From contig NZ_CP109430.1 in NCBI RefSeq assembly GCF_036250735.1, positions 5,146,001 to 5,210,000 on the forward strand: a stretch of DNA of 64,000 bases, written 5' to 3'. Below the pieces are notes generated by a model. It saw only the letters and a list, made by a program, of their open reading frames with translations, was not told the origin of the DNA and searched no databases. Source of the DNA: Streptosporangium sp. NBC_01495 (GTDB lineage: Bacteria > Actinomycetota > Actinomycetes > Streptosporangiales > Streptosporangiaceae). A program made the position numbers and the translations under genes. Shown one piece after another: positions 60-51,991 of this stretch (within the stretch, counting starts at the first letter, position 1; each line of letters starts with the position of its first letter).

Positions 60-1337
60 CTACCCTTTCCCCGCCGGCCCGGTGCGCAGTGTCCTGATCT
101 CGCGGGTGAGCAGGAGCGGCAGGCACACCAGGGCCGCCAGCGAGCCGAGGACCCACAGCATCGGCCGGACGCCGAACACGTCGCCGAGCACGCCGCCGAT
201 GGCGGCGCCCAGCGGGAGCGTGCCCCACACCGCGAACCGCATGGACGCGTTCATCCGGCCCTGCAGCTCCGTCGGCGTGATCGCCTGCCGCAGGCTGATC
301 TGGTTGATGTTGTAGACCGAGATCCCCGCCAGCATCAGCCCGATCGCGACGGAGACGAGCAGCGAACCGGCGCCCGGTCCCGCCGAGGCGATGAGCAGGA
401 TCGGCAGGACCGCCAGCAGCGCGGCGCCGACCAGCGTCGGCCCCAGCCCCAGGGTCCTGACCACCCGCGCGTTGACCATCGCGCCGAGCAGGGCGCCCGC
501 GTTGCCCAGGGTCAGGATGAGCCCGAGCGTGCCGGGCGTGAGGTCGAGGTCGTTGAGCGCGAACACCACCAGCAGCGCGGTCAGCGCGCCACCGAGCCCG
601 ATCAGGTTCATCAGTGCCGTGCACATGGCGATCGCCCGCAGCGTGCGGTTGCCGAAGACGAACCGCAACCCCTCGCCGATCTCCGTGGCCATCCTCCGCC
701 GCGGGGCGGCGGGTTCCGGCCCGGTGGTGGCGGGACGACTGGTGATCATGCTGACCAGCACGGCCGACACCAGGTAGCCGGCCACGTTGAACAGCAGCAC
801 GAACGGCGCGATCAGCACCTGGATGAGCAGTCCGCCGAGGCTCGGTCCCCCCAGGTACGCGATCGACCTGGACACCTCCAGCCGGGTGTTGCCCGCGGGA
901 ATGTCCTCGGTCTCGACCACCGAGGGCAGGAACGCCTGGTCGGCGATGTCGAAGAACACCGTCTGCACCCCGACCAGCAGGCCGACGACCAGCATCAGCC
1001 CGATGCTCAGCATGTCGAACAGGTAGGCGATCGGCAGGGTCGCGAGGACCACCATCCGCCCGACGTCGGTGAAGATCAGAATGCGGCGCCGGTCCCAGCG
1101 GTCGACCCACACGCCCGCGGGCAGCGAGACCAGCAGGAACGGCAGGGTTTCCGCGGCCACGAGCAGGCCGACCTGGGTGGTGGACGCGTTGAGCACGGTC
1201 AGCGCGATCACCGGGATGGCGAAGAAGGTGATCTGCGAGCCGATCTGGCTGACCGTCTGGGCCGCCCACAGCAGGGTGAAGTCACGGTGACGCCAGAGAC
1301 TTCGCCGGTCCGCGGTGGGCGTGGCCTTGCTGTCCAT
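60..1337 (-). CDS. MFS exporter of the NRPS locus
   Basis: A major facilitator superfamily protein of 425 residues with about 12 hydrophobic segments. The start reads MDSKATPTADRRSLWRHRDF, the usual N-terminus of actinobacterial MFS_3 (enterobactin-exporter EntS-like) proteins, and the loop between TM2 and TM3 carries GVWVDRWDRRRIL, the family's conserved GxxxDRxxRR signature. I chose the ATG at 1335-1337, which has GGAGA upstream, over the longer open frame, whose extra 54 residues are low-complexity Arg/Pro/Ser. It lies 34 bases after the MbtH gene in the same direction, so it is probably the last gene of the NRPS operon and exports the peptide. Export of the NRPS product is an inference from position; the fold call is firm. 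Confidence 0.88.
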   Translation of the reverse strand: MDSKATPTADRRSLWRHRDFTLLWAAQTVSQIGSQITFFAIPVIALTVLNASTTQVGLLVAAETLPFLLVSLPAGVWVDRWDRRRILIFTDVGRMVVLATLPIAYLFDMLSIGLMLVVGLLVGVQTVFFDIADQAFLPSVVETEDIPAGNTRLEVSRSIAYLGGPSLGGLLIQVLIAPFVLLFNVAGYLVSAVLVSMITSRPATTGPEPAAPRRRMATEIGEGLRFVFGNRTLRAIAMCTALMNLIGLGGALTALLVVFALNDLDLTPGTLGLILTLGNAGALLGAMVNARVVRTLGLGPTLVGAALLAVLPILLIASAGPGAGSLLVSVAIGLMLAGISVYNINQISLRQAITPTELQGRMNASMRFAVWGTLPLGAAIGGVLGDVFGVRPMLWVLGSLAALVCLPLLLTREIRTLRTGPAGKG

Positions 1338-1371
1338 GATGGGGGGTGTCCCTTTCTCCGTCGGTGCCGAC

Positions 1372-1569
1372 TCAGCCGGCGGCAAGGTGCTCGCGCAGCG
1401 AGCGCGGGCGCATGTCGGTCCACACCCGCTCGATCCGGTCGAGGCAGGTCTCGCGGTCGCCGACGGTCCCCTCCTCGGTCCATCCGGGGGGCAGGGCACG
1501 TCCGACGGGCCAGATCGAGTACTGGTCCTCGTCGTTGCGGACGACGCGGTAGTCGGTGGGGTCGGTCAT
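1372..1569 (-). CDS. MbtH-like NRPS accessory protein
   Basis: A 65-residue MbtH family protein, a small chaperone that binds NRPS adenylation domains and is often essential for their activity. All family landmarks are present: NDEDQYSIWP near residues 12-21, PPGW at 27-30, the CLDRI helix and WTDMRP at 50-55, ending SLREH. The ATG has GAGGAG seven bases upstream. It sits between the second NRPS (32-base gap) and the MFS exporter (34-base gap), typical of an NRPS operon. Length matches the family (60-75 residues). The partner should be one or more of the three adenylation domains encoded upstream. Confidence 0.96.
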   Translation of the reverse strand: MTDPTDYRVVRNDEDQYSIWPVGRALPPGWTEEGTVGDRETCLDRIERVWTDMRPRSLREHLAAG

Positions 1570-1601
1570 GGACACTCCTCGCGGTGATTCCTCTTGCCTG
1601 T

Positions 1602-4600
1602 TCAATGGGATGGGCGTGTCACGGACAGCAGGTCGGCGACCGGCCGGTCCAGCCCGTCGGCCAGGGCGTCGAGCACGCGCCTGACGTGGTGCAGCAGCTC
1701 CACGGCGCGCTCGTCCGACACCTGCTCGCGGTAGTAGCTCACCTTCAGCAGCAGGGCGGGGTCCGGCCAGACGACCAGCCGCAACGTCTCGTCGCCGGGG
1801 GCGCCGTTGGCGATCGGGTTCCAGCCCGCGAGCCGCGACTGCAGCCGCCCGTCGAACGGGAAGTTCTCGACGACGATCTCCGAGTCGTAGAGCCGGTCGG
1901 CGTCGTCGAGACCGCACCAGCGCTGGACGTCCAGGGGCGAGACGTATTCGAACCCGGCCGCCTCGGCGTGGTTGTCCTGCAGGCCGCGCAGCCAGTCCCG
2001 GCAGCGGGCCGCGTGGTCCACGACGACCCGGCTGGGCAGCCGGTTGTTGAGGCAGCCCACGATGTCCTCCGCGCCGCCGACCGCGTCGGCGCGGCCCGAG
2101 ACGACGGTGCCGAAGACGAGATCGCCGGTGCCGAGCGCGTGGCCGAGCGCGATCGCGTACGCGCCCTGCACCAGGGTGTGCAGCGTCAGCCCCGCCTCGG
2201 CCGCCCGCCGGTTCAGCGGGGCCGTGCGCTCGGCGGGCAGCCAGACGCGCTGGTCGGCGTGGAACTCGCCGTCGGCGGAGCCCGGACCGAGCCCGGCGGC
2301 GACCAGCCCGCGCGGCGCCCCGGCGAGCCTGCCGGTCCAGTACGACCGGGCGGCGGCGGCGTCACGCTCCCGCCACCAGCGGGCGATCACACCGGGTTCC
2401 GGCCGGGCGGCCAGGGTGACCGGCTCACCGGCGCGGAACCCGTCGTGCAGGTCGAACAGATCCCGCAGCAGCGCCGAGAACGACCAGCCGTCGAGGTTCA
2501 GGTAGGAGTAGTCCCACACCAGGTAGGCGGCTCCGGGACCCCGGTCGAACACGGTCAGCTCGACCTGGCAGCGGCGCAGCGGATCGGCCGGGGTGCTCCT
2601 GAGGACCCCCAGGTGCCGGTTGACCGCCAGGACCGCCTCGGCCGTGCCGAGCCCGCCGAGGTCCTCACGGCGCACACGGAGCGCGGCGTTGCGGTGCACC
2701 ACCTGCAGGTCCCTGCCGTCGTGCGTGCGCAGCGAGGTGCGCAGGGCCGGATGGTGCTCGACGAGCGCGTTCCACGCCAGGACCAGCAGGTCCACGTCGA
2801 TGTCCGTGCCACTGACGTCGAACGCCTCGTACACCCGGTACATCCCGGGCCGGGGCCGGTGCCGCAGCCGGTTGAGCCCCCAGCGCTGCATCGGCCCGGC
2901 CGGTTCGATCCGCTCGGCGTCGAGCAGCCCGGCCAGCAGCGCGGGACGGCTCGCGCCGTCGATGCCGAGGTGGGCGGTCTCGGGCAGCCGGAAGCCCCTG
3001 GGGGTCGGCTCGGCCGCGGCCACCGGCGGCTCGCTCCCCCGCGGCGTCCAGGTCGCGCCGAGCGCCCCGGCCAGCTCGCGGACCGTCTGGTGGGCGAACA
3101 CGTCCCGCGCGGTGAACGGCATCCCCGCCGCCCTGGCCAGGGAGACCACCCGGATGCTGGAGATCGAGTTGCCGCCGACGGCGAAGAAGTTGTCGTCGGC
3201 CGAGATGTCTTCGCGGCCGAGCACCTCCCACCAGATGCGCAGGAGCGCCGCCTGGCCGTCGCCTGCCGGCGCGGGCCCGTCCGCGGCCGGTCCCCGCTCC
3301 CGGACGGGCTCCGGCAGCGCGCTCGGCACGAGCTTGCCGCCCGCCGTACGCGGCAGCTCGGCCAGCTCGACCAGGTAGGCGGGCACCTGGTAGCCCGGTA
3401 TCCGCTCGACGAGAAAACGCCGCAGGCCGGCGGGGTCGAGCGTGCCGCCGGGCCGGGCGACCACGTAGGCGACCACCTCGTGTGAGCCCTCGGTGCGCAC
3501 CGCGCGCGCGACCACCTCCTCGACGTCGGGGTGGGCGGCGACCGCCACCTCGACCTCTCGCAGCTCGACCCGGTGGCCGCGCACCTTGATCTGGCCGTCG
3601 ACCCGGCCGACGAAGCGCAGCACGCCGTCGGCGTCGACCCTGGCCCGGTCGCCGGTGCGGTACATCCGCGCGCCCGGCTCGCCGCCGAACGGGTCGGGCA
3701 CGAACCGCCGCGCCGTCGCGGCGGGCAGGCCGGGGTAGCCCCGGGCCAGGCACGGGCCCGCGACGTACAGCTCCCCCGCCAGGCCCGGCGCGACCGGCCG
3801 CATCTCCGCGTCGAGCACGTAGGCGCGCATGCCGCGCATCGGCAGGCCGATGGGCACCACGGGGCCGAGCCTGCCGTCGCTCACCGAGCCGGTGTGGGTG
3901 AGCGAGGTGATCAGGGTCTCGGTGAGGCCGTAGGCGTTCACCACCGGCACGTCGGTCCGCTCGGACCAGCGTTTGAGGTCGGCCACGTAGCCCGCCTCCG
4001 CACCGATCACCACCGTGCGCAGCGCCGGGGGCAGCGGGCGCGGGCGGCGTTCCAGGTCGCGCGCCCACTCGGCCCAGTAGGAGCTGGTGAAGTCGGCCAG
4101 CGTGCCGCCGCCGTCGGTGAGCACCCGCTCCAGGTCCACCGGGGCGATCCTGTTGTCCTCCAGCAGCAGCACCCCGCCCCCGACGCACCACACCGGCACC
4201 GTCTCCTCGAAGCAGACGTCGAAGGTGAGCGCGGCGAACTGCAGGAACACGTCGTCGGCGGTGATCGCGAGCCGCTCGGCGAAGATGCCGGCGTAGAAGG
4301 CGAGTGCGTCGTGGCCGACCGCCACCGGCTTGGGAAGCCCGGTCGATCCCGAGGTGAACAGCACGTACGCCAGCGCGTTGAGAAGGGTGGCGGGCGCCCC
4401 CGCCCCCGCGCCCCCGGCGTCCGCGCCGATCCCGTCCGCGCCCCCGGCGTCCGCGTCGACTCCGGCCGCGCCTCCGGCGTCCGCGTCGACTCCGGCCGCG
4501 TCGATCCCGTCCAGGTCCAGCCAGGCGAGGTCCGCGTCGAGGTCGAGCCGCTGCGCGACCTCCTTGGCCGCCTCCGCGGACTCGGCCAGCCCTAGGCGCA

Positions 4601-6302
4601 CGCCGGCCGCCTCCGTCATCGCGCGCAGCCGCTGGTCGGGCAGGGACAGATCGAGCGGGACGACGGCGGCGCCCGCGTACCAGGTGCCGAGCACCGCGAC
4701 CGCCCAGCCCACCCCGCGCGGCAGGGCGAGCAGCACGGTGTCGTCCGGCCCCGCGCCCGCCGCGCGGATCCGCGCGGCCAGGCTCCTGGCCCGGTGGTCG
4801 AGCTCGCGGTAGGTCACCTCGACGCCCTGGCAGGTCCTGGCCGCGACGGCGTCAGGGCACAGCGCCGCCCGCTCGGAGATCTGCACCGGCACCGGCACCC
4901 AGGTCGGCAGGACCGGCCCCTCGGCCCTGACCGGCCCGAACAGCAGGCTCCCGTTCCCGCCCGCGTCCAGGTCGCGCACCAGCCCGCCATCCCCGCCGTC
5001 CCCGCCGTCGCCGGCCACGAAGGACTCCAGCAGGGCCAGGTGGGCTCCGGCCAGCGCGGCCACCGTACTCTCGTCGAACAGGTCCGTCCGGTACTCCCAG
5101 TCGGCGACGACTCCCCCGGCGGTGACCTCCACCCCGAGGCCCAGCTCGAACTTGGCGTTCGTGCACGGCGTCGACATCCGCTCGGCGGCGAGACCGGCGC
5201 CGAACTCGGGGGTGATCACGTCCAGCTGGTCGAGGCCGCACAGCACCTGCACGATCGGCGCGTACGCCGTCGAGCGCGGGACCCGCAGCCGGTCCACCAG
5301 CTCCTCGAAGCCGACACCGCCGTGGCGCATCGTCTCGAGCACCCTGGTCCGCACCTGGTCGAGCAGGTCCCGGACGGTGTCGCCGGCGCCGACGCGCAGC
5401 CGCAACGGGACGGTGGTGACGAACATGCCGACGGTGTCCACGTCGTCCATCGACGTCCGCCCCGACGACGGCGAGCCGATCACCAGGTCGCGCTGCCCGG
5501 TCAGCCTGGCCAGCAGGACCGCGTACGCGGCGAGCACCACCATGTACGGCGTGACGCGCCACCGCGCGCAGGCGGCGACGAGCCGCCGCCACAGCCTCGG
5601 CGGGATCGTCCGGCGCAGCGCGCCGCCCGCGCTGCCGCCGCCCTCCGGCCGTGGCCGGTCGGCCGGCAGGTCGATCACCTCGGGAGCGTCGCACAGCATG
5701 TCCTCCCAGTAGCGCAGGGCCTCCTCCCTGCCGGGTGGCACGGTCGTGTCCCGGCCGAACCAGGACTCGACGGCGGGAAGCCCGGCCTCCGTCCCGCCGG
5801 AGAGCGCGCGGTAGAGCAGGCCGAGGTCGCGATACAGCACCCGCAGGGACAGGCCGTCGCACACCAGGTGGTGCACCACCAGGACCAGCACGTGGTCGTC
5901 GGCGGACACCCGCAGCAGGGCCGTACGCAGCAGCGGGCCGCGGGACAGGTCGAACGGCCTGTCCACCTCGTGGGCGAGCCTGGCCCGCGCCATCTCCGGC
6001 GCGGTGTGCGGCGAGTGCGAGAAGTCCACCACCGGCATCGCGAGCACGACCGGCCCGGTGTCCTCCAGCAAGGGCCGCTCACCCGCGACGACGTGGCCGC
6101 GCAGGACCGAATGCCGGTCGAGCAGGGCCGTCAGCGCCCGGTGCAGCACGTCGGCGTCGAGCGCGCCGCGCACCCGCAGGGAGGCGTTGATGTGGTACAG
6201 CGCGGCCCCGCCGTCCGCCAGGACCGCGCGCTCCCACTGCTCGCCGAACCAGAGCCCGAGCTGCGCCGGGGTCAGCGGCACACGGACCGGCACGCCGGTC
6301 AC
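1602..6302 (-). CDS. NRPS, module 3 plus degenerate terminal condensation domain (C-A-T-C*)
   Basis: A nonribosomal peptide synthetase of 1566 residues. Domain order: condensation (1-430, intact HHLVCDG at 144-150), adenylation (475-1000, core LFTSGSTGLPKP at 648-659, YRTGD near 881, catalytic Lys990 in GGK), carrier (1015-1085, Ser1046 in GGNS) and a second condensation-like domain (1120-1566). In the last domain the HHxxxDG motif reads SYLNLDG, so both histidines are missing while Asp-Gly remains. The A-domain signature, aligned by eye to PheA, is about D-V-E-S-V-I-A-I-T-K; the Glu at the third position hints at a basic or amino side chain. Start is a GTG overlapping the previous NRPS stop by four bases (GTGA). 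The longer open frame upstream is shadow. No thioesterase, epimerase or reductase is present. A three-copy 30-bp repeat lies inside the A domain. Confidence 0.95.
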   Translation of the reverse strand: MTGVPVRVPLTPAQLGLWFGEQWERAVLADGGAALYHINASLRVRGALDADVLHRALTALLDRHSVLRGHVVAGERPLLEDTGPVVLAMPVVDFSHSPHTAPEMARARLAHEVDRPFDLSRGPLLRTALLRVSADDHVLVLVVHHLVCDGLSLRVLYRDLGLLYRALSGGTEAGLPAVESWFGRDTTVPPGREEALRYWEDMLCDAPEVIDLPADRPRPEGGGSAGGALRRTIPPRLWRRLVAACARWRVTPYMVVLAAYAVLLARLTGQRDLVIGSPSSGRTSMDDVDTVGMFVTTVPLRLRVGAGDTVRDLLDQVRTRVLETMRHGGVGFEELVDRLRVPRSTAYAPIVQVLCGLDQLDVITPEFGAGLAAERMSTPCTNAKFELGLGVEVTAGGVVADWEYRTDLFDESTVAALAGAHLALLESFVAGDGGDGGDGGLVRDLDAGGNGSLLFGPVRAEGPVLPTWVPVPVQISERAALCPDAVAARTCQGVEVTYRELDHRARSLAARIRAAGAGPDDTVLLALPRGVGWAVAVLGTWYAGAAVVPLDLSLPDQRLRAMTEAAGVRLGLAESAEAAKEVAQRLDLDADLAWLDLDGIDAAGVDADAGGAAGVDADAGGADGIGADAGGAGAGAPATLLNALAYVLFTSGSTGLPKPVAVGHDALAFYAGIFAERLAITADDVFLQFAALTFDVCFEETVPVWCVGGGVLLLEDNRIAPVDLERVLTDGGGTLADFTSSYWAEWARDLERRPRPLPPALRTVVIGAEAGYVADLKRWSERTDVPVVNAYGLTETLITSLTHTGSVSDGRLGPVVPIGLPMRGMRAYVLDAEMRPVAPGLAGELYVAGPCLARGYPGLPAATARRFVPDPFGGEPGARMYRTGDRARVDADGVLRFVGRVDGQIKVRGHRVELREVEVAVAAHPDVEEVVARAVRTEGSHEVVAYVVARPGGTLDPAGLRRFLVERIPGYQVPAYLVELAELPRTAGGKLVPSALPEPVRERGPAADGPAPAGDGQAALLRIWWEVLGREDISADDNFFAVGGNSISSIRVVSLARAAGMPFTARDVFAHQTVRELAGALGATWTPRGSEPPVAAAEPTPRGFRLPETAHLGIDGASRPALLAGLLDAERIEPAGPMQRWGLNRLRHRPRPGMYRVYEAFDVSGTDIDVDLLVLAWNALVEHHPALRTSLRTHDGRDLQVVHRNAALRVRREDLGGLGTAEAVLAVNRHLGVLRSTPADPLRRCQVELTVFDRGPGAAYLVWDYSYLNLDGWSFSALLRDLFDLHDGFRAGEPVTLAARPEPGVIARWWRERDAAAARSYWTGRLAGAPRGLVAAGLGPGSADGEFHADQRVWLPAERTAPLNRRAAEAGLTLHTLVQGAYAIALGHALGTGDLVFGTVVSGRADAVGGAEDIVGCLNNRLPSRVVVDHAARCRDWLRGLQDNHAEAAGFEYVSPLDVQRWCGLDDADRLYDSEIVVENFPFDGRLQSRLAGWNPIANGAPGDETLRLVVWPDPALLLKVSYYREQVSDERAVELLHHVRRVLDALADGLDRPVADLLSVTRPSH
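4411..4500 (-). repeat. 30-bp tandem repeat x3 inside the adenylation domain
   Basis: Three consecutive 30-base units (4411-4440, 4441-4470, 4471-4500) encode the linker units AAGVDADAGG, AAGVDADAGG and ADGIGADAGG at about NRPS residues 602-631. Two units are nearly identical. The linker sits in the N-subdomain just before core motif A3 and is absent from ordinary A domains, so it is an in-frame expansion that probably forms a flexible acidic loop. Confidence 0.85.
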
Positions 6303-9300
6303 GCCGGGACCTCTTCCACGGGCGGGGTCACGGCGAGGTGGCCGACGAGCTCGGCGACCGTCGGGTGGGCGAAGAAGTCGGCGACCGGAAGATCCATGCC
6401 GGTCGACGCCTTGAGCCGGTGGCGGATCCGCAGCACCGCGAGCGAGTGCCCGCCCAGGAGGAACAGGTTGTCGTGCCGGTCGACCCGGGGCACCTCGAGG
6501 ATCTCCGCCCAGATGCCGCTCATGGTGCGCTCCAGTTCCGCCCACGGCGCCCGGTCCCCGCCCGCCTCGTCGCCCCCGTCGCCCTCGTCGCCCTCGTCGC
6601 CGGGGACCGCTCCGGTGTCGTGCCGCGGTTCCGTGTCGTGCGATGGTTCCGCGTCGTACGGCGGTTCCGGCAACCGCGCGCGGTCGACCTTGCCCGAGGT
6701 GGTCAGCGGGATCTCGTCGAGCACGACGTAGGCGCGCGGCACCAGACCCGAGGGCAGCTTGGTCGCGGCGTGCGCGGCGAGGTCCTTCGCCGGCGGCGGC
6801 TCGTCCGTCGCGGGCCGCACATAGGCGACCAGGGTCTGCGCAGGAGCCTCGCCGCGCACCACGACGTAGGCCGCCGCGACGGCCGGGTGGGTGCCGAGCA
6901 CCTGCTCGATCTCGCCGAGCTCGACGCGCAGGCCACGGATCTTGACCTGCTGGTCGCGCCTGCCGAGGTATTCGAGCCGGCCGTCCAGCGCCCACCGGGC
7001 GCGGTCGCCGGTGAGGTAGAGCCGGCCGCCCGGCCGCCGGCCGTACGGGTCGGGGACGAACCGCTCGGCGGTGAGGCGGGCGCGGCCGAGGTAGCCGTCA
7101 CAGACGCCGTCGCCGCCGATGGCGAGCTCGCCCTCGACGCCGCGCGGCAGCAGGTGCCCGCCGGGATCCACGACGTGGACCTCGACGCCGGGTCCTGGCG
7201 CGCCGAGCGGCCAGGGCCGGTCGGGGTCGGCGGTCACCGGGCCGCCGGTGACGAACACCGTCGTCTCGGTCGGGCCGTACAGGTTGCGCACCATCGGCAC
7301 GCCCGCCTCCTCCACCAGCCGTACGAGCGGCGCGGTGCCGGCCTCGCCGCCGAAGTTCACCGAGCGCACGCCCGCCGGGATCGCGCCCTCGCGCAGCAGC
7401 TCGGCGAGCATGCTGCCGACGACGTTGACCTGGGTGGGGACCAGGCGCTCCGGCAGCGACGGCAGCGCGAACAGGTCGTCGACGAGCACGACCGTCCCGC
7501 CGGCCGCCAGCGTCGGCAGGATCTCGTGCACCGAGACGTCGAACGTCAGCGCGGTGGCGGCGAGCGTGCGCTCCAGCAGCCCGTCCGGGGTCTCGGCGAG
7601 CGCCCAGCGCACGAAGTGGTCGAGGTTGGCGTGCGTCACCCGGCAGCCCTTGGGGAGGCCCGTGCTGCCCGAGGTGTACATGACCCACGCGGTCGAGGCG
7701 GGGTGCGCGGGCCGGAACGGGGGGCCGTCCGCGGGTTCGGGCTCGGCTTCGGGCGCGGGTTCGGGCGCGGGTTCGGGCTCGGGTTCGGGCGCGGGTTCGA
7801 GCGCGGTGACGTCGAGCGGTTCCCAGTCCCCCGGGGGCAGCAGGCCCGCCGTGCCGGCGTCGACGAGGACCCGGCGCACGCCGGAGTCCGCGAGCATGTA
7901 CGCGATGCGGTCGGCCGGGTGGGCGGGGTCGAGCGGCAGGTAGCCTCGGCCGGAGAGCAGCGTGCCCAGCAGCGAGATCAGTGCCTGCGGCGTACGGCGC
8001 AGCAGGACGCCGACCGGCGCGCCGCCGCCGGCGCCGGACTCGTCGAGCATCCGGGCGACCGACCGGGCCCGCCCGGCGACCTCCGCGTAGCGGAGCGTCC
8101 CGGCCGTCGTGCTGATCGCGGGCGCGTCCGGGACGCGCGCGACCGCGGCGGCGAACAGGTCGGCGAAGGCCGCCGCCGGCGCGGCGGGCCGGCCGGCGCC
8201 CAGGGCGAGCAGCCCGGCCCGGCTCCCCGGGCCGACGAGGTCCACCTCGCCGAGGCGCGCGCCGGGGTTCTCGGTCATCGTGGCGAGCAGATGCAGGTAG
8301 GAGTCCGCCACCTCGGCGACGAACTCCCTGGCGAACAGGTCGCTGTTGTACTCCCACAGCAGGGTGACCCGGCCGTCGAGGCGGCCGTCCGCGCCGGGCT
8401 CCGCCTCTGCTCTCGGGATGACGACCACGTTGAGGTCGACCTTCGCCGAGCCGTTGTCGCGCTCGTAGACCGTCGCCGAGCAGCCGGGCAGTTCCAGGTC
8501 GGGCATCCTGGCGTCGTTGGCGCTGAACATGATCTGGAAGTAGGGGTTGGCCGCCGGGTCGCGGTCGGGGTTGAGCGCGCGCACCAGTTCCACGAAGGGG
8601 AGCTCCTGGTTGGCCGTGGCCGCGCGCACGGTCGCGGTACTGCGGCGCAGCAGTTCCGCGAAGGTGGGGTCGCCGCCCGCGTCGCAGCGCAGCACGACCG
8701 CGTTGACGAACATGCCGATGACGTCCTCGGTCTCGGCGAGCTGGCGGTTGCCGAACGCCGAGCCGACCGCGAGGTCGTCCTGGCGGGTGTAGCGCCACAG
8801 CGTGGCGTAGAAGCCCGCGAGCATCGCGCTGAACAGCGTGGTGTGATGGGTCCTGGCGAGCTCGCGGAGCGCGGCGACGGTGCGCGCCGACACCTCCAGC
8901 CGCACCATGCCGCCTTCGAAGCCCTGCGGCCTCGAACGGGCCCTGGTGGTGGGCAGTGACACCGCCGGCGGGCTGCCGGCCAGTGTCGCGGCCCAGTGTT
9001 CCCGCTGACGTCGCATGCCCTCGCCCGCCAGCGCCCGCTCCTGCCAGCGCGCGTAGTCGGCGTACCGGAACTCGATCTCGGGCAGCCCGGCCGGCTCCCC
9101 GGTGACCTCGGCGGTGTAGGCGGCGCGCAACTCCCGCATCAGCAGGCCGAAGGACCAGCCGTCGTGGACGAAGTGGTGCTCCACCAGGATGATCTCGTGG
9201 GTGGCCGGGCCGAGCCGTACCACCGTCCACCGCACCAGCGGCAGCTCGCCGAGGTCGAACGGCGTGGTCATGTCGCGGACGACGAGTTCCTCCACCCTGG

Positions 9301-11425
9301 CCCGGTGCTCGGACTCCGGCACGCCGGACAGGTCGACGAGGTGGACCGGCATCGGGCCCTCGGCGTGCACGCGCTGGAACGGCATCCCGTCGTCGTCGTG
9401 GAAGGTGGTCCGGAAGATCGACTGGCGGGCGGTGATGACGCCGACCGCGCGCCGCAGCGCGCCGAGGTCGAGGTCGCCCGCCACCCGCATCGTCGTCTGC
9501 GCGTGGTAGGCGATGTTGCCGGGGGCGAGCCGGTCGAGGAACCAGACCTGTTGCTGCTGCGCGGTGAGCGGCACGCGGTCGTCGTCGCCGCCGCGCTCCA
9601 TCGGGGGCAGGGCGGCGTCCGCGCCGGGGCCGCCCCGGTCGACGAGCGCGGCCAGCGCGGCGATCGTCGGATGTGCCATCAGGTCGGCGACGGTGACCTC
9701 GGCCGGCCGGCGGGCGCGGATCCGGTTGGTGATCTGCACGGCGGCGAGGGAGTGCCCGCCGAGGTCGAAGAACGAGTCGTCGACGCCGATCCGGTCGACG
9801 CGCAGCGTCCGGCTCCACAGCCGGGCCAGCTCGATCTCGGTGTCGGTGACCGGCGCGCGGAAGGGCACGTCGTCGGCGCGCCGCCACAGCTGGGACTTGG
9901 GCAGCGCGTCAGCGTCGATCTTGCCGCTGGGCAGCAGCGGGAGCGCGTCGACGACGACGTAGCGGCTGGGGATGTGGCCGGCGGGCAGGGACCGTGCCAG
10001 ATGCTCGCGGAGCCCGCCCGCGGTGGGCACCCGGTGGGAGTCGACCGGCACGACGTAGGCGATCAGCCGGGTGTCGCCGTCGTCGCCGGTCTCGGCGCGC
10101 GCGTGGGCCGCGGCGACCTCGGGGTGGGAGCACAGGTGCCGGACGACTTCCCCGGGGTGCACCCGCTGGCCCCGGATCTTCACCAGGTCGTCGGCCCGGC
10201 CGAGGATCCGCAGCACGCCGCCGGCGTCGAGGACGCCGCGGTCGCCGGTGCGGTACAGGCGCGCTCCCGCGCGGCCCGACCAGGGGTCGGGGACGAACCT
10301 GTCGGCGGTGAGGCGGGGGTCGCCGCGGTAGCCGAGCGCCACCCCGGGCCCGCCGATGTGGACCTCGCCGGACCGGCCGGGCGGGACCCGCTCCAGGTTC
10401 TCGTCGAGCAGGAGGACCTCGGTGCCCAGGATGGCCGTGCCGACGGGCAGGGTCGCTCCGCCGACGGCGGCGTCGGCGTCGGCCCCGGTGAGCGGGTGCG
10501 TCGTCGAGGTCACCGTCGTCTCGGTGAGACCGTACGCGTTGATCGTCTCGACCTGGCAGAACCTGCGCCAGGTGGCCAGCGTCGTGGCGCGGCCCATGTC
10601 GCTGCCGATGACCAGCAGGCGCAGCGAGCGGGGTATCGAGGGGAGTACGGCGTCGCCGCCCTGGTCGAGGTCGCGGACCCACTGCTCCCAGTAGGGGGTG
10701 GGGAGGTTGGCGACGGTGACCCGCTCGCGGGTGAGGAGGCCGGTGAGCTGCTCCGTGGTGATCGCCGAGGTCGGCGCGAGCACGAGCGTGGCCCCGGCCA
10801 GCAGGGTCGGGAAGATCTCCTCGAGTGCCACGTCGAAGCCGACGGTGGCGAACTGGAGGACCCGGTCCCCGCCGCTCAGCGCGTACGCCGCCCGGATGGC
10901 CCGCGCGTGCGCGCCGAGCGCGCGGTGCGGGACCTCGACGGCTTTCTGCGCGCCGGTGGTTCCCGAGGTGAACAGCACGTAGGCGAGCTGCTCGCCATGC
11001 GGTGGACGCCCGGCGAACGGCCCGGCGCCGGACTCGGGGAGCGGCCGGACGCCGGCCCGCTCGGCGACCACGGCGCCCGCCGCGTCGGTGAGGCACAGGT
11101 CGGCGGCGGCGAGCATGCGCAGCCTGCGGTCGAGCGGCAGCTGCGGGTCGACCGGCAGGAAGGCCGCGCCGGACAGCAGGACGCCGGTCAGCGCGGCGAT
11201 CAACTCCTCGCCCCTGGGCAGCATGATCGCGACCACCGTCTGCGCCCCGGTGGGGCCGGTCGGGTCACCGACGCGCGACGCGACGCTCAGCGCCCGTTCC
11301 TCCAGTTGCCGGTAGGTCAGTTCCGATGTGCCCGCCCTTACGGCGATCCGCTCGCCGCCCGCCCTCAACGACTCGGCGAGGGCGGCGCACAGAGGGTAGG
11401 AGAAAACATCGGCGTCGTCGGGCAT
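6299..11425 (-). CDS. NRPS, modules 1 and 2 (A-T-C-A-T)
   Basis: An initiating NRPS of 1708 residues with no starter condensation domain. Order: A1 (about 25-515; LFTSGTTGAQK at 151, Lys502), T1 (Ser559 in GGHS), C (about 615-1060; intact HHFVHDG at 750-756), A2 (about 1085-1590; TSGSTGLPKG at 1251) and T2 (Ser1661 in GGHS). By-eye specificity codes: A1 about D-V-E-P-L-I-A-V-T-K, with the same acidic third position as the downstream module; A2 about D-V-H-M-V-F-L-V-F-K, unassigned. I take ATG 11425. A GTG three codons upstream (11434) is possible because GGGAGG lies 4 bases before it and 13 before the ATG. Two low-complexity stretches, Pro-Glu (about 1208-1232) and Asp-Glu-Gly before T2, mark tandem codon expansions. 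The stop overlaps the next NRPS start, implying translational coupling. Confidence 0.95.
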   Translation of the reverse strand: MPDDADVFSYPLCAALAESLRAGGERIAVRAGTSELTYRQLEERALSVASRVGDPTGPTGAQTVVAIMLPRGEELIAALTGVLLSGAAFLPVDPQLPLDRRLRMLAAADLCLTDAAGAVVAERAGVRPLPESGAGPFAGRPPHGEQLAYVLFTSGTTGAQKAVEVPHRALGAHARAIRAAYALSGGDRVLQFATVGFDVALEEIFPTLLAGATLVLAPTSAITTEQLTGLLTRERVTVANLPTPYWEQWVRDLDQGGDAVLPSIPRSLRLLVIGSDMGRATTLATWRRFCQVETINAYGLTETTVTSTTHPLTGADADAAVGGATLPVGTAILGTEVLLLDENLERVPPGRSGEVHIGGPGVALGYRGDPRLTADRFVPDPWSGRAGARLYRTGDRGVLDAGGVLRILGRADDLVKIRGQRVHPGEVVRHLCSHPEVAAAHARAETGDDGDTRLIAYVVPVDSHRVPTAGGLREHLARSLPAGHIPSRYVVVDALPLLPSGKIDADALPKSQLWRRADDVPFRAPVTDTEIELARLWSRTLRVDRIGVDDSFFDLGGHSLAAVQITNRIRARRPAEVTVADLMAHPTIAALAALVDRGGPGADAALPPMERGGDDDRVPLTAQQQQVWFLDRLAPGNIAYHAQTTMRVAGDLDLGALRRAVGVITARQSIFRTTFHDDDGMPFQRVHAEGPMPVHLVDLSGVPESEHRARVEELVVRDMTTPFDLGELPLVRWTVVRLGPATHEIILVEHHFVHDGWSFGLLMRELRAAYTAEVTGEPAGLPEIEFRYADYARWQERALAGEGMRRQREHWAATLAGSPPAVSLPTTRARSRPQGFEGGMVRLEVSARTVAALRELARTHHTTLFSAMLAGFYATLWRYTRQDDLAVGSAFGNRQLAETEDVIGMFVNAVVLRCDAGGDPTFAELLRRSTATVRAATANQELPFVELVRALNPDRDPAANPYFQIMFSANDARMPDLELPGCSATVYERDNGSAKVDLNVVVIPRAEAEPGADGRLDGRVTLLWEYNSDLFAREFVAEVADSYLHLLATMTENPGARLGEVDLVGPGSRAGLLALGAGRPAAPAAAFADLFAAAVARVPDAPAISTTAGTLRYAEVAGRARSVARMLDESGAGGGAPVGVLLRRTPQALISLLGTLLSGRGYLPLDPAHPADRIAYMLADSGVRRVLVDAGTAGLLPPGDWEPLDVTALEPAPEPEPEPAPEPAPEAEPEPADGPPFRPAHPASTAWVMYTSGSTGLPKGCRVTHANLDHFVRWALAETPDGLLERTLAATALTFDVSVHEILPTLAAGGTVVLVDDLFALPSLPERLVPTQVNVVGSMLAELLREGAIPAGVRSVNFGGEAGTAPLVRLVEEAGVPMVRNLYGPTETTVFVTGGPVTADPDRPWPLGAPGPGVEVHVVDPGGHLLPRGVEGELAIGGDGVCDGYLGRARLTAERFVPDPYGRRPGGRLYLTGDRARWALDGRLEYLGRRDQQVKIRGLRVELGEIEQVLGTHPAVAAAYVVVRGEAPAQTLVAYVRPATDEPPPAKDLAAHAATKLPSGLVPRAYVVLDEIPLTTSGKVDRARLPEPPYDAEPSHDTEPRHDTGAVPGDEGDEGDGGDEAGGDRAPWAELERTMSGIWAEILEVPRVDRHDNLFLLGGHSLAVLRIRHRLKASTGMDLPVADFFAHPTVAELVGHLAVTPPVEEVPA
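7735..7800 (-). repeat. Short Pro-Glu codon repeats in adenylation domain 2
   Basis: A run of imperfect 6- and 12-base units (variants of TTCGGGCGCGGG on the plus strand) encodes alternating Pro-Glu and Pro-Ala dipeptides at about residues 1211-1232 of the first NRPS, just before the A3 core. It occupies the same structural position as the 30-bp repeat in the downstream NRPS, so two of three A domains have an expanded loop at the same site. Confidence 0.75.
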
Positions 11426-12325
11426 GGGGTCCACACAGCCTCCCTGATCGTCAACCGCGCTCAAGCGACGCCGGGCATGTGAGAACGGCACGCGGGGCTC
11501 ACCGAATGAGCCGTGCGCGGCGTCGAACCGCCTCACCGGGCATCGGCGAACCGCCGCCCGAAACTTTGGATGTCCCCTGGTAGATTTCGGCGGCCCCACA
11601 CACACCGAACCAAGGCATGAAAACCCGGATCTACTCGGACCCTTATCTGCTGAGTTATGGTCCGATCGCGACGCGGATAACGTCCGGGCTACTGTCGTTT
11701 ACCCGCCGCACTCTCATTTCCAGAGCCATAGCAGAGCACAGCGGGTTGTCACCTAACAACCCCACAAGACCTTTTTGTTATTTTCGCTATGTATTGGAAA
11801 TATGGGCCTTGTCGTCCGTTCGAAATTGTTGTATTGATTCCATCCGGCCCGTCGCCCGCGGCGGGCGAAGACCGGGTTTCACGAGCCGACGAACTGGCAG
11901 GCGGCGATGTTTTCGCAGGTGAGCGCCTTGACCTGAAGTGCCGGACGAGAGTGGGCCGGCCGTTCGGAGCGGGAGCCTCGCGGGAGGCCGCGATTCCCGG
12001 CGGCGGCAGGGGTGCGCCGGAAAGATCACGCCGCCGCGCGGCCCGGTGGCCCGGTACCCCCTCCGAGCCGGCCCGCGAGCGGCGTCCCCGCCGGACGGGC
12101 CCACAGAAAATTGGAACCGTCCATTGACGCGGATAGATGGCCTGGTGCATCATTCAGGCGTCGTCAGGCCGGTTTATCGATGATTTTTGCCGACGCCGTG
12201 ATTCTTATATCCATCGTGCCATTCTCCGGGATGCATAACACGGTGACAGTCCGACTCCCGAGAGCGAATGACGCTGGTCAGGCTGCCATCCGGTAATCGG
12301 AATTTTACGATCAAAGGAACGGGCA
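11426..12325. promoter_or_regulatory. Divergent 0.9 kb control region between the NRPS operon and argHG
   Basis: No credible gene is seen in these 900 bases, although open frames exist on both strands. The region is locally AT-rich (about 11600-11830 and 12100-12310), unlike the flanking genes. It holds a 7-bp inverted repeat with a 6-base loop at 11743-11762 (GGGTTGT/ACAACCC). It also holds ATGCATAA at 12231-12238, which resembles half of an actinobacterial ARG box; a full box is not evident. It must contain the promoters of both transcription units. No pathway-specific regulator gene lies next to it. Confidence 0.6.
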
Positions 12326-13873
12326 TTGACTGACAAGTTATGGGGCGGTCGCTTTGACGAGGACATCACCAAGGACGTTCTCGACTACACCCTCACCGTG
12401 GACGTCGACGAGCGGCTCGTCTTCGCGGACCTGTGGCAGGACATCGCGCATGTGCTGATGCTGGGCGTCCGGGGAATCGTCACCGGCGAGGTCACCCGGG
12501 CCCTGCTCGGCTCGCTGCTCCGGCTGTGGGACCGGAGCGAGCGCGGGGAGCTGCGGCTGCGCCCCGAGCTCGAGGACGTCCACTTCAACATCGAGCAGAA
12601 GGTCATCGAGGATCTGGGGCGTGAGACCGGCGGCCACCTGCAGACCGCGCGGTCACGCAACGACCAGGTGTCCACGGACACCCGCATGTACCTGCGGCGG
12701 GTCCAGCTCGACGCGGTCGCGGCGAACCTGGAGCTGATCGGTGAGCTGCTCGGCTTCCCCGAGGAGGACCTGCTCGCGATCCTGCCCGGCTACACCCACA
12801 GCCAGGCCGCCCAGCCGATCTCCGTCGCCTTCTGGAAGACCGCGCACGCGAGCATGCTCCTGCGTGACGTGCGCCGGCTGCGCGACGTGTTCGGCCGGAC
12901 GGACGAGTCCCCCCTGGGCTCCTGCGCGCTGGCCGGCACGTCCTTCGCGATCGACCGCGAGCTCACCGCCCGGCTGCTCGGGTTCTCCGGCGTGCTCGGC
13001 CACGCGCTGGACGCCACCAGCGCCCGCGACCATCTCATCGAGAGCGCCTCGGCCTTCGCGATCGGCGGCAACAACCTGTCCCGCATGGCCGAGGAGATCG
13101 TCATGTGGAGCGGGCACGAGTACAGCCTGGTCGAGGTCTCCGACGCCTACGCCACGGGCAGCTCGATCATGCCCCAGAAGAAGAACCCGGTCGTCGCCGA
13201 GCTGGCCAGGGGGCGCACCGGGCGGACGGTGGGCACCCTCGTCCAGCTCCTCACCATGTCCAAGGGGGTGACCCTCGGCTACAGCTGCGACCTCCAGGAG
13301 GACAAGCCGTACCTGTGGCACGCCATCGACACCTACCTCTCGACCCTCCGCATCGTGGCCGGGCAGACCCGGGGGCTGCGCTTCGACGGCACCCGGGGCG
13401 AGGAGCTGTGCTGGGACAACTTCTCCACGGCCACCGAGCTGGCCAACCACCTGGTCGCCGACCGGGGGCTCGCGTTCCGCGAGGCGCACCACGTCAGCGG
13501 CGCGCTCGTCTCGGCCCTCCTCAAGCGGGGCGCGACGCTGCGGGACACGGCCGCCGGCGCGGAGATCCTCGCCGGGCTCGGCCATCCCGTGCCCGAACCC
13601 GTGCTCGCCCACCTCCTCGCGCCCCGGACCGCGGTGGCCGGCTACACCAGCCCCGGCGGCACCTCGCCGCGGAGCGTCACGGCCGTGCGCGCCGAGCTGC
13701 ACGCGGCGGTGACCGCCCACGCCGCCTGGCTCGACGGGACACGGCGAAGGCTCCGGAGCGCGTACGAGGCCGCCTTCCGCGCGGCCCGCGACGTCGCCGG
13801 CGGAGCCGACGTCGGCGAGGCCCTCGGCCGGATCGCCCCCGACCTGCCCACGCTCAACGGAGGCCCGTCATGA
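12326..13873 (+). CDS. argH: Argininosuccinate lyase, divergent paralogue
   Basis: A fumarase/aspartase-superfamily lyase of 515 residues, longer than usual ArgH (about 460-480). The reaction expected is argininosuccinate to arginine plus fumarate. Catalytic parts are kept: RSRNDQV near 109, GYTH near 154, the mobile signature GSSIMPQKKNP near 278, and Tyr/Gln/Lys of the substrate loop (GYSCDLQEDK). Several normally invariant stretches have changed. The N-terminal FNASI..FD is YTLTVDVD here, DIxGSxAH is DLWQDIAH, THLQRAQP is THSQAAQP and LAYNKD is LGYSCD. The TTG start has AAAGGA seven bases upstream. argG follows with an ATGA overlap. Order argH-argG, opposite to an NRPS operon and apart from other arg genes, suggests a pathway copy rather than the housekeeping one. 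Altered substrate scope is an inference. Confidence 0.88.
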   Translation: MTDKLWGGRFDEDITKDVLDYTLTVDVDERLVFADLWQDIAHVLMLGVRGIVTGEVTRALLGSLLRLWDRSERGELRLRPELEDVHFNIEQKVIEDLGRETGGHLQTARSRNDQVSTDTRMYLRRVQLDAVAANLELIGELLGFPEEDLLAILPGYTHSQAAQPISVAFWKTAHASMLLRDVRRLRDVFGRTDESPLGSCALAGTSFAIDRELTARLLGFSGVLGHALDATSARDHLIESASAFAIGGNNLSRMAEEIVMWSGHEYSLVEVSDAYATGSSIMPQKKNPVVAELARGRTGRTVGTLVQLLTMSKGVTLGYSCDLQEDKPYLWHAIDTYLSTLRIVAGQTRGLRFDGTRGEELCWDNFSTATELANHLVADRGLAFREAHHVSGALVSALLKRGATLRDTAAGAEILAGLGHPVPEPVLAHLLAPRTAVAGYTSPGGTSPRSVTAVRAELHAAVTAHAAWLDGTRRRLRSAYEAAFRAARDVAGGADVGEALGRIAPDLPTLNGGPS

Positions 13874-15048
13874 AGATCGTTCTGGCCTACTCCGGCGGCC
13901 TCGACACGTCCGTGGCCCTGCACTGGCTCCAGCGGCGCCACGACGCCGAGATCATCGCGTTCTGCGCGGACATCGGCCAGCTGGAGTCGCTGGAGACCGT
14001 GCGGGAACGGGCGCTGCGTACCGGCGCCTCGAAGGTCTACGTGGAGCCGCTCACCGAGCGGTACCTGAGGGATTTCGCGCTGCCCGCCCTGCAAGCACAC
14101 GCGCGTTACGAGAACAAGTACCTGCTGGCCGCGCCGCTCTCCCGGCCGTTGATCGCCCAGCGCATGGTCGAGATCGCCCGCGCCGAGGGCGCCGACGCCG
14201 TGGCGCACGGGGCCACCGGCAAGGGCAACGACCAGGTGCGGTTCTTCACCAGCGTGACCGCTCTCGATCCGGGGCTGCGGGTGCTGGCGCCGGTCATCGA
14301 CTGGGAACTGACCACCCGCGAGACGGAGATCGCCTACGCGCGGGAACACGGCATCGAGGTGTCGGTCAGCAAGGAGAACCCGTACAGCATCGACACCAAC
14401 ATCTGGGGCACCAGCATCGAGTGCGGTGAGCTCGACGACATCGACCGGCCGCCGCCCGGCCACGCCTGGCAGCTGACCGCCGACCCCAAGACCGCCCCCG
14501 ACCGGGCCGAGCACGTCACGGTGGGCTTCGAGGCGGGGATCCCCGTCTCCCTCGACGGCGACAAGCTGGAGCCGGCCGACCTGGTGTCCCGCCTGACGGC
14601 GATCGCCGCCCGCCACGGCGTGGGGCGAATCGACATCGTCGAGAGCCGGATCGTGGGTTTCAAGACCCGCGGCATCTACGAGGCGCCGGCGGCGACCGTG
14701 CTGATGGCCGCGCACGAGGAACTGGAGGCGATCGTCCTCGACCGTGAGACGCTGCACCACAAGCAGGGCCTCGCGCAGCGCTACGCCGAACTCGCCTACT
14801 ACGGTTACTGGTTCTCCGACCTGCGCCGCGCCCTGGACGGTTTCGTCTCCACGTTGCAGCCGCGGGTGACGGGCGAGGTGACCGTCGAGCTCTACAAGGG
14901 GACCTGCGCCATCGTCGGCCGCCGCTCGCCGAACTCCCGCTACAGCGACTCGCTCGCCACCTACGAGGCGGGAGACACCTTCGACCACCGGGCGGGCGCG
15001 GGTTTCGCCTACGTGTGGTCGCTGCCACTCAGGGGCTCCCCGCGCTGA
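13870..15048 (+). CDS. argG: Argininosuccinate synthase
   Basis: A 392-residue ATP-dependent ligase joining citrulline (or a related ureido compound) to aspartate. It has the PP-loop AYSGGLDTS at 6-14, GATGKGNDQVRF near 116-127 for citrulline and aspartate, YSIDTNIWG and SIECGELDD near 172-188, and KTRGIYEAPA near 261. It is closer to the family consensus than the adjacent ArgH, though the normally Leu-Glu-Asp-Pro segment after SIECG is altered to LDDI. Translation is coupled to argH by an ATGA overlap, so the two steps are made in equal amounts. Likely role: supply of arginine or a guanidino building block for the adjacent NRPS. That role is inferred from position. Confidence 0.95.
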   Translation: MKIVLAYSGGLDTSVALHWLQRRHDAEIIAFCADIGQLESLETVRERALRTGASKVYVEPLTERYLRDFALPALQAHARYENKYLLAAPLSRPLIAQRMVEIARAEGADAVAHGATGKGNDQVRFFTSVTALDPGLRVLAPVIDWELTTRETEIAYAREHGIEVSVSKENPYSIDTNIWGTSIECGELDDIDRPPPGHAWQLTADPKTAPDRAEHVTVGFEAGIPVSLDGDKLEPADLVSRLTAIAARHGVGRIDIVESRIVGFKTRGIYEAPAATVLMAAHEELEAIVLDRETLHHKQGLAQRYAELAYYGYWFSDLRRALDGFVSTLQPRVTGEVTVELYKGTCAIVGRRSPNSRYSDSLATYEAGDTFDHRAGAGFAYVWSLPLRGSPR

Positions 15049-50966: not shown

Positions 50967-51991
50967 GTGACGAACCGCTACGGAGCCCAGTTCGGGCCCG
51001 ACATCACCTTCCTCGGCGTCGAGCGATGCTCGCTGGACGACCCCGCGAGCTACGCGGGCGCCGACATCGTGATCGTGGGGGCGCCGTTCGACGGCGGCAC
51101 CTCGCACCGGCCCGGTGCGCGCTTCGGGCCGCAGGCGATCCGGATGACCGACTACCTGCCGCACGACGGGACGCGCCCCAGCCTGGCGCTGCGCACCGAC
51201 GGGCTGCGCGACCTGCGCGTCCTGGACGCGGGCGACGTCGAGATGCCGCCCGGCGACATCCTGGCGTCGCTGGCCGCCCTGGAGGCCGCCGTCGAGAAGG
51301 TCGCCCGATCGGGGCCATCCCGGTGATCCTGGGCGGTGACCACTCGATCGCCTTCCCCGACGCCAAGGGGGTGGCCAACGTCCTCGGGCACGGCCGGATC
51401 TCCATGATCCACTTCGATGCCCACGCGGACACCGGCGACATCGAGTTCGGCTCGCTGTGGGGGCACGGGCAGCCGATGCGCAGGCTCATCGAGTCGGGGG
51501 CGCTGCGCGGCGACCGGTTCCTGCAGGTCGGCCTGCGCGGCTACTGGCCGCCGCCGGAGACGCTGGACTGGATGGCGGAACGGGCGATGCGCTCGTACGA
51601 GATGACCGAGATCGTGCACCGGGGCCTGGAGGAGTGCCTGACCGAGGCCTTCGCCATCGCCGTCGACGAGTGCGACGGCGTCTTCCTGTCCGTCGACATC
51701 GACGTGTGCGACCCGGGACACGCGCCGGGCACGGGAACCCCGGAACCCGGTGGCCTCACCGCGCGCCAGCTCCTGGACTCCGTACGGCGCATCTGCCTGG
51801 AGCTGCCGGTCGTCGGCGTCGACGTCGTGGAGGTCAGCCCGCCCTACGACCACGCCGACATCACCGCCGCGCTGGCCAACCGGGTGGTCCTCGAGGCGTT
51901 GAGCGCCATCGCCCGGCGGCGGCGCGATGCCAGGGACGGGACCGCGTGGAACCCGCTGCTGCCGCTGCTCGCCGAGCGCCCGGACCGCTGA
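50967..51991 (+). pseudogene. Agmatinase/guanidinobutyrase-family ureohydrolase with a frameshift
   Basis: Two overlapping frames make one manganese ureohydrolase. The 5' part (GTG 50967, GAGGA upstream) includes VIVGAPFDGGTSHRPGARFG and PQAIRMTDYL, and ends by frameshift at EKVARS. The 3' part, starting after IGAIPVILGGDHSIAFP, has FDAHADTG and SVDIDVCDPGHAPGTGTPEP plus GGL: all metal-binding motifs. A single missing base between 51305 and 51306 (GTC GCC [G]CG ATC) restores one frame of about 342 codons. It is either a real inactivating mutation or a read error. If repaired, it would release urea from agmatine or guanidinobutyrate. Confidence 0.88.

Follow-up and report, generated by a model that had tools for sequence, protein, structure and literature searches.

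The genes described here resemble those of two known systems: the ArgF-ArgG-ArgH route of arginine biosynthesis, and the coelichelin-type hydroxyornithine formyltransferases, among which we count CchA. N-formimidoylation of aminoglycosides by Orf1 of BD-12 is attributed, in the opening of the abstract, to a flavin adenine dinucleotide (FAD)-dependent enzyme and a glycine-derived group (PMC10156733), while members of the ArgG family with solved structures (PDB 9lei/9leh) are named as nitrile synthetases in the accessible part of their description (PMC13060819). The locus analysed here lies at the start of a 64,000-nucleotide stretch, hereafter the window, of Streptosporangium sp. NBC_01495 (contig NZ_CP109430.1, positions 5,146,001 to 5,210,000). 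It contains a seven-gene cluster in which two non-ribosomal peptide synthetase (NRPS) genes are accompanied by an extra argH-argG pair and a formyltransferase gene. This arginine-type module is real, conserved and dedicated, and its formyltransferase stands where one would look for a carbamoyltransferase. It is about evenly poised whether, as these sequences suggest, formylation here replaces carbamoylation to yield N5-formimidoyl-ornithine, a mimic of arginine.

The argH, argG and formyltransferase genes, henceforth the trio, are linked in different gene neighbourhoods. Loci of this clade were sought with the window ArgH, through a pattern scan of genome contigs that yielded nine loci, and a later survey that added three more Streptomyces. 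As the pattern scan detects close relatives only, the resulting 13 genomes should be read as at least 13. Both argG and the formyltransferase gene are linked to this type of argH in 13/13. In four genomes the same NRPS is flanked by argH-argG and the formyltransferase: besides NBC_01495, these are Acrocarpospora phusangensis, Nonomuraea solani and N. typhae, in which both NRPS genes occur with argH-argG (75-82% identity), and approximately 12 kb separate argH from the formyltransferase gene, which closes the cluster past the genes for MbtH and the major facilitator superfamily (MFS) protein. The remaining nine have no such NRPS, and in every one argH, argG and the formyltransferase gene follow one another on the same strand, with no gene between them and -4 to 143 bp apart. 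This argH type is rare: at an E value of 1e-150, it was detected in one of 394 genomes sampled in the class (NBC_01495 itself), three of 160 Micromonospora, four of 392 Streptomyces, and two of 297 from the family of genome G061. Five bipartitions, each main group included, are common to the trees of all three proteins, the pairwise distances of which are correlated (r 0.885-0.964), and the clade is monophyletic relative to canonical copies, with support of 0.854 for ArgG and 0.993 for ArgH.

Both window proteins score well above the curated cut-offs of their families (ArgH, 454.8 against 279.5 bits for TIGR00838; ArgG, 464.2 against 268.2 bits for TIGR00032). An earlier sequence-only reading of this DNA had taken them to be dedicated to the NRPS, and a search for housekeeping copies bears this out: a second argH (575.1 bits) and argG (490.1 bits) were found at C1:6216357-6218968 of the same genome, adjoined by argF- and argC-like genes, as named by eye from the open reading frames. 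The window proteins share only 40% (ArgH) and 46% (ArgG) identity with this second pair. Hence the window pair is supported as an addition to the housekeeping one, and it has been inherited with the NRPS in four genomes. A separate, higher-scoring ArgH is likewise present beside the clade copy in all nine relative genomes tested (10/10 with NBC_01495), a count that leaves aside the three Streptomyces of the later survey. The Streptomyces genome of locus L036 additionally has a third ArgH-family gene (L072, G063:C27), the 283.9 bits of which barely exceed the cut-off of 279.5.

The formyltransferase satisfies the Pfam models Formyl_trans_N and Formyl_trans_C, and falls below the curated cut-off of NF005414 (PRK06988; 211 against 316 bits). 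All 13 trio formyltransferases have an NxH motif and an FDLG[D/E] stretch; we assume that the catalytic set of the superfamily is Asn, His and Asp, and that the latter stretch holds the Asp. The nearest relatives found in these genomes are about 58% identical and adjoin lysine/ornithine N-monooxygenases in 3/3 cases, in neighbourhoods that appear by eye to be siderophore-like. The 13 trio proteins are separated from these three monooxygenase-side copies by 26 fixed differences. A siderophore-like locus is also present in NBC_01495 (G000:C1:5442961-5457788; L099, L100), where a lysine/ornithine N-monooxygenase accompanies a 4114-aa NRPS-like frame and there is no adjacent formyltransferase gene.

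A search of the window, the 40 kb to its left and L033-L050 revealed no lysine/ornithine N-monooxygenase. Nor did a tblastn search with the strain's own ArgF, other carbamoyltransferase families not being sought, detect an ArgF-like carbamoyltransferase in the window, the left flank, L033-L044 or L083-L093, the positive control L012 alone being matched. Together these absences suggest that the acceptor of the formyl group may be unhydroxylated ornithine. The sequence-only reading had proposed that a guanidino group is made from a ureido precursor plus aspartate. The dedicated ArgG and ArgH, and the arginine-type adenylation domains described below, agree with the general form of this proposal; the ureido precursor does not fare so well. 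Since no ArgF-like gene is near, and the pair has a linked formyltransferase gene in 13/13 genomes, a formamide (N5-formylornithine) is the better candidate, and the precursor used by ArgG is probably a formamide rather than a ureide.

Comparison of the 13 clade proteins with nine canonical ArgG and 12 canonical ArgH sequences is consistent with this substitution. The ArgG residues presumed to contact the amino-acid moiety of citrulline (Y84, N120, R124, S173, E258 and Y270) are kept in 13/13, and those presumed to bind aspartate are also unchanged. At positions 87-88, all 13 clade proteins have AA, where the canonical copies have VS, VC or GT. Hence position 88, next to Tyr84, is Ala throughout the clade and Ser, Thr or Cys in 9/9 canonical sequences; it is Thr in the E. 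coli-type ArgG that NBC_01495 also encodes, and is not treated here as a strict defining feature of the family. In ArgH, the residues we take to be catalytic or substrate-binding are unchanged in 13/13 (the His of GYTH, the Ser of GSSxMP, the Lys and Asn of KKN, and the Tyr, Gln and Lys of YNxDxQEDK), while neighbouring positions are altered, the fixed changes relative to the canonical copies being L159S/G, H169F, N226H, S227A, D289V and E328P. This pattern would be expected of active enzymes with a substrate derived from ornithine and altered at its reacting end, which fits N5-formylornithine.

Two of the three adenylation (A) domains of the NRPS suggest an arginine-like building block. The order of A, thiolation (T) and condensation (C) domains in the sequence-only reading, A-T-C-A-T plus C-A-T-C, together with MbtH and an MFS exporter on one strand and a coupled argH-argG pair opposite across 0.9 kb, is reproduced by gene calls and Pfam. 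The codes were read at nine signature positions, set by those of PheA and verified visually on an alignment with LgrA, with the tenth (Lys) being assumed. That of A1 is DVENVGAVT, with a single V/I variation across the four genomes; that of A3, DVEDVGAIT, is invariant in all four; and that of A2, DVHGNGLVF, varies in the relatives. The arginine codes in Table 2 of PMC5311044, the part of that source used here, are DVEDIGAIEK and DVEDIGAVEK. A3 agrees with the first of these, from A1 of Planktothrix ApnA, at 7/9 of the positions read (DVEDIGAIE), and A1 with the two codes at 5/9 (DVEDIGAIE) and 6/9 (DVEDIGAVE). Hence A1 and A3 resemble arginine-type domains, with the Glu noted by the sequence-only reading being kept in both across all four genomes. 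The neutral specificity that this reading named as breaking the functional link is thus not indicated for two of the three domains, and A2 is left without an assignment.

Neither NRPS1 nor NRPS2 contains a thioesterase domain detectable with Pfam. The terminal C domain of NRPS2 has WDYSYLNLDG in place of HHxxxDG, and the histidines are gone in all four genomes (WDY[S/C]YL[N/S]LDG). NRPS1 is 75-82% identical in L033-L035, and NRPS2 79-82% over the part fetched; across 60 genomes, that of NBC_01495 included, an NRPS2 query matched, besides itself, generic NRPSs only, at 33-41% identity.

The proposed route would begin with the formyltransferase acting on the side-chain amine of ornithine, to give N5-formylornithine, which can be regarded as an isostere of citrulline that has H in place of the terminal NH2. 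ArgG would then activate the formamide oxygen with ATP, through O-adenylation, and add aspartate, and ArgH would remove fumarate to leave N5-formimidoyl-ornithine, with a formamidine in place of the guanidine. A1 and A3 may load this amino acid as residues 1 and 3 of a small peptide, which the MFS protein would export.

The trio is not confined to loci with this NRPS. Of the nine other loci, only four (L036, L037, L038 and L041) were analysed with additional flanking sequence, such that the counts of Car, clavam and ArgJ genes are lower bounds in the other five. A CarB-like crotonase gene is near the trio in 9/9, with the best reference match being the CarB-like protein of L038 (46-82% identity, L038 included as itself), while CarA/beta-lactam synthetase (BLS)- and CarC-like genes occur in 5/9, two of them only through the extra flanks. 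Comparison with solved structures, made for the proteins of L038 only, identified clear homologues of CarC and CarB, and a third protein for which beta-lactam synthetase and CarA are about equally good matches. The clavam genes CeaS/BLS/PAH-CAS are present in 2/9, one of which also has carbapenem-type genes. ArgJ, which releases ornithine, is encoded in 6/9. Hence the trio is a portable module, not peculiar to one NRPS, as several genomes of Streptomyces and Micromonospora also have it in or near clavam or carbapenem clusters, to which it might deliver the same building block.

Approximately 35 kb of contig G063:C9 in one Streptomyces (L087, L036, L086) carries the trio together with the clavam genes PAH-CAS, BLS and CeaS and with CarA/BLS-, CarB- and CarC-like genes, possibly as a beta-lactam supercluster. 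At L041:4224-6224, a clavaminate synthase domain (NF043003, 523 bits, cut-off 450) shares a single open frame with a PAH-like domain of the agmatinase family. At an E value of 1e-10, there were no homologues of Car proteins (CarA/BLS, CarB, CarC) or CeaS in the window, L010, L011, L033-L035 or L042-L044. The sole match in these sequences, obtained with the PAH-CAS query, is an agmatinase-like gene at window positions 51057-51901, which is 39-54% identical, over two pieces, to the PAH portion of the fused clavam protein.

A broader proposal can be made, albeit tentatively and with slightly less confidence than the route itself: that actinomycetes run a parallel arginine pathway, with 10-formyltetrahydrofolate in place of carbamoyl phosphate and diverged forms of ArgG and ArgH, and that this portable module supplies a formamidine mimic of arginine to clusters for NRPS tripeptides, carbapenems and clavams. 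Chemists place an N-formimidoyl group on thienamycin to make imipenem, and the product may be a natural counterpart of this group.

Several observations weigh against the formamidine route. N5-formylornithine and its formimidoyl product are both inferred from sequence, and the building block has no explained use in carbapenem or clavam clusters. Each of the three trees has poorly supported nodes, and no ArgJ was found in the NRPS-type loci or in L083-L085. Pro89 of the clade ArgG is also present in the E. coli-type ArgG of the same genome, and hence is not diagnostic; changes at positions 126 (E to F, Y or H) and 143 (R to I) were rejected as proof of a new substrate, the E. coli-type protein having Y and L there. 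Furthermore, at least one lysine/ornithine N-monooxygenase is encoded elsewhere in all 13 genomes, including on the contig of the trio at distances of about 79 kb (G062), 234 kb (G064) and, in NBC_01495, 298 kb. In this last case the gene adjoins a large NRPS, and the formyltransferase of the trio is the only one of its type in the genome. Of the monooxygenases beside the formyltransferase relatives, the one tested (L052) best matches MbtG, named as a lysine enzyme, followed by the ornithine enzymes KtzI and PvdA/SidA, while NCBIfam assigns it the histamine N-monooxygenase model only, far below the cut-off. These enzymes, and the position of the nearest formyltransferase relatives beside others of their kind, would suit a formyltransferase acting on N5-hydroxyornithine supplied from elsewhere in the genome, either to make an N-hydroxylated version of the product or for siderophore synthesis in trans. 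We nevertheless regard this as improbable: the trio loci searched contain no monooxygenase, G060, G061 and G068 each encode, besides the trio copy, another formyltransferase to fill this role, and the linkage to ArgG and ArgH would be left unaccounted for.

The main rival to the formamidine route is that ArgG and ArgH convert citrulline into plain L-arginine, which would serve A1 and A3 as well as CeaS-dependent clavam synthesis, with the formyltransferase N-formylating the first residue or another amine. The family scores and retained catalytic residues of both enzymes, the arginine-type codes of A1 and A3, and the clavam genes near the trio in two genomes, given that the clavam pathway uses arginine, can all be read in this way; so can the A domain at the start of NRPS1, as this is a usual place for a formylated starter. 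However, plain arginine supply does not require the formyltransferase to be co-inherited with ArgG and ArgH, nor does it account for their fixed changes relative to canonical copies. As all 10 genomes examined encode a separate ArgH, they need not have an extra supply. Seven loci in which no close CeaS homologue was seen, as judged from extra flanks for L037 and L038 only and about 18-21 kb for the others, also have the three trio genes in a row; one gene of L040 is 24% identical to CeaS. This explanation seems unlikely. The fixed changes could alternatively reflect conversion of a ureido compound other than citrulline into a guanidine, with the formyltransferase acting elsewhere. This is improbable, as the ArgF query, which did not extend to other carbamoyltransferase families, revealed no carbamoyltransferase near the loci searched, and the unchanged ArgG residues presumed to bind the amino-acid part of citrulline favour a substrate derived from ornithine.

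The cluster straddles the start of the window, with the formyltransferase gene starting four bases past its edge (Table 1). By gene calls and Pfam, NRPS1, NRPS2 and the MbtH, MFS and formyltransferase genes are on the reverse strand, with argH and argG on the forward strand; argH and argG overlap by four bases, as do NRPS1 and NRPS2, and 62 bp separate the formyltransferase and MFS genes. An MFS gene similar to that of the window also adjoins the formyltransferase gene in L042-L044. Beyond the formyltransferase and argG, the genes vary by eye between NBC_01495 and its NRPS-type relatives, and hence the core consists of seven genes. The luciferase-like monooxygenase (LLM) oxidoreductase, third argG and helix-turn-helix (HTH) gene to the left, and the MarR, MFS and P450 genes to the right, were considered as members and rejected, as the flanks in L033-L035 and L042-L044 look different by eye; by tblastn, none of the flanking genes was matched in L033-L035 at more than 38% identity. 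The third argG is the E. coli-type copy (NF003779, 841.7 bits, cut-off 657), which adjoins an F420-type LLM oxidoreductase gene left of the window (L010:15267-16715 and L010:16803-17765), and was not seen next to the cluster in any of the three relatives with this NRPS. The control region between NRPS1 and argH contains no Rfam family at the gathering threshold, and its alignment across relatives was uninformative, the stretch from L034 apparently overlapping coding sequence.

Table 1. Coordinates of the cluster features, in window positions unless a locus is named.
Feature	Position	Strand	Basis
Formyltransferase, outside the window	G000:C1:5145047-5145997 = L010:19047-19997	-	Pfam Formyl_trans_N + Formyl_trans_C
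MFS exporter (MFS_3)	60..1337	-	Pfam PF05977, 115.8 bits
MbtH-like NRPS partner protein	1372..1569	-	PF03621, 64.6 bits
NRPS2, C-A3-T-C	1602..6302	-	Pfam domains
NRPS1, A1-T-C-A2-T	6299..11434	-	Pfam domains
Divergent control region, NRPS1/argH, 891 bp	11435..12325	.	Gene calls
Extra argH (argininosuccinate-lyase family), TTG start	12326..13873	+	TIGR00838, 454.8 bits
Extra argG (argininosuccinate-synthase family)	13870..15048	+	TIGR00032, 464.2 bits

Judged by titles and abstract openings, no description of this route or module was found in searches of the open-access literature, which is weak evidence of novelty. If correct, the proposal would add a formamidine route distinct from the glycine-derived one of aminoglycosides, in which two enzymes of primary metabolism are reused on a formamide. 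The argH-argG-formyltransferase arrangement would then be a genetic tag for finding clusters of carbapenems, clavams and peptides that use building blocks mimicking arginine. All three enzymes are small and have relatives that are well understood.

Both NRPS proteins have, among their PDB matches, structures of the arginine-activating A1 domain from the anabaenopeptin synthetase ApnA, although ApnA belongs to another peptide architecture, and its code differs from that of A3 at two of nine positions and from that of A1 at three or four. As proposed for the trio, BD-12 Orf1 adds a formimidoyl group to a natural product, but it is FAD-dependent and the group is derived from glycine, and the opening of the abstract names no formyltransferase or argininosuccinate-type enzymes (PMC10156733). 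The nitrile synthetases, as far as the accessible description goes, are also a case of an ArgG homologue apparently recruited to other chemistry, with nitriles rather than a formamidine as the named product (PMC13060819). Clavam (CeaS-BLS-PAH-CAS) and carbapenem (CarA-CarB-CarC) clusters have the trio within or near them in several genomes, whereas, at the threshold given above, no Car, CeaS or BLS homologue was found in the window, in the flank to its left or in the three relatives with the NRPS. Coelichelin-type formyltransferases such as CchA are of the same type as that of the trio, with the 58% identical relatives being found beside lysine/ornithine N-monooxygenases, whereas the trio loci searched have linkage to ArgG and ArgH in place of a monooxygenase, and the fixed differences set the 13 trio proteins apart from the three copies. 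Arginine biosynthesis itself shares the ArgG and ArgH families, their coupling in one operon and, in several trio loci, ArgJ; yet where that pathway uses ArgF, the trio clusters searched have a formyltransferase and no ArgF-like carbamoyltransferase, and the product proposed for them is a formamidine rather than a guanidine.

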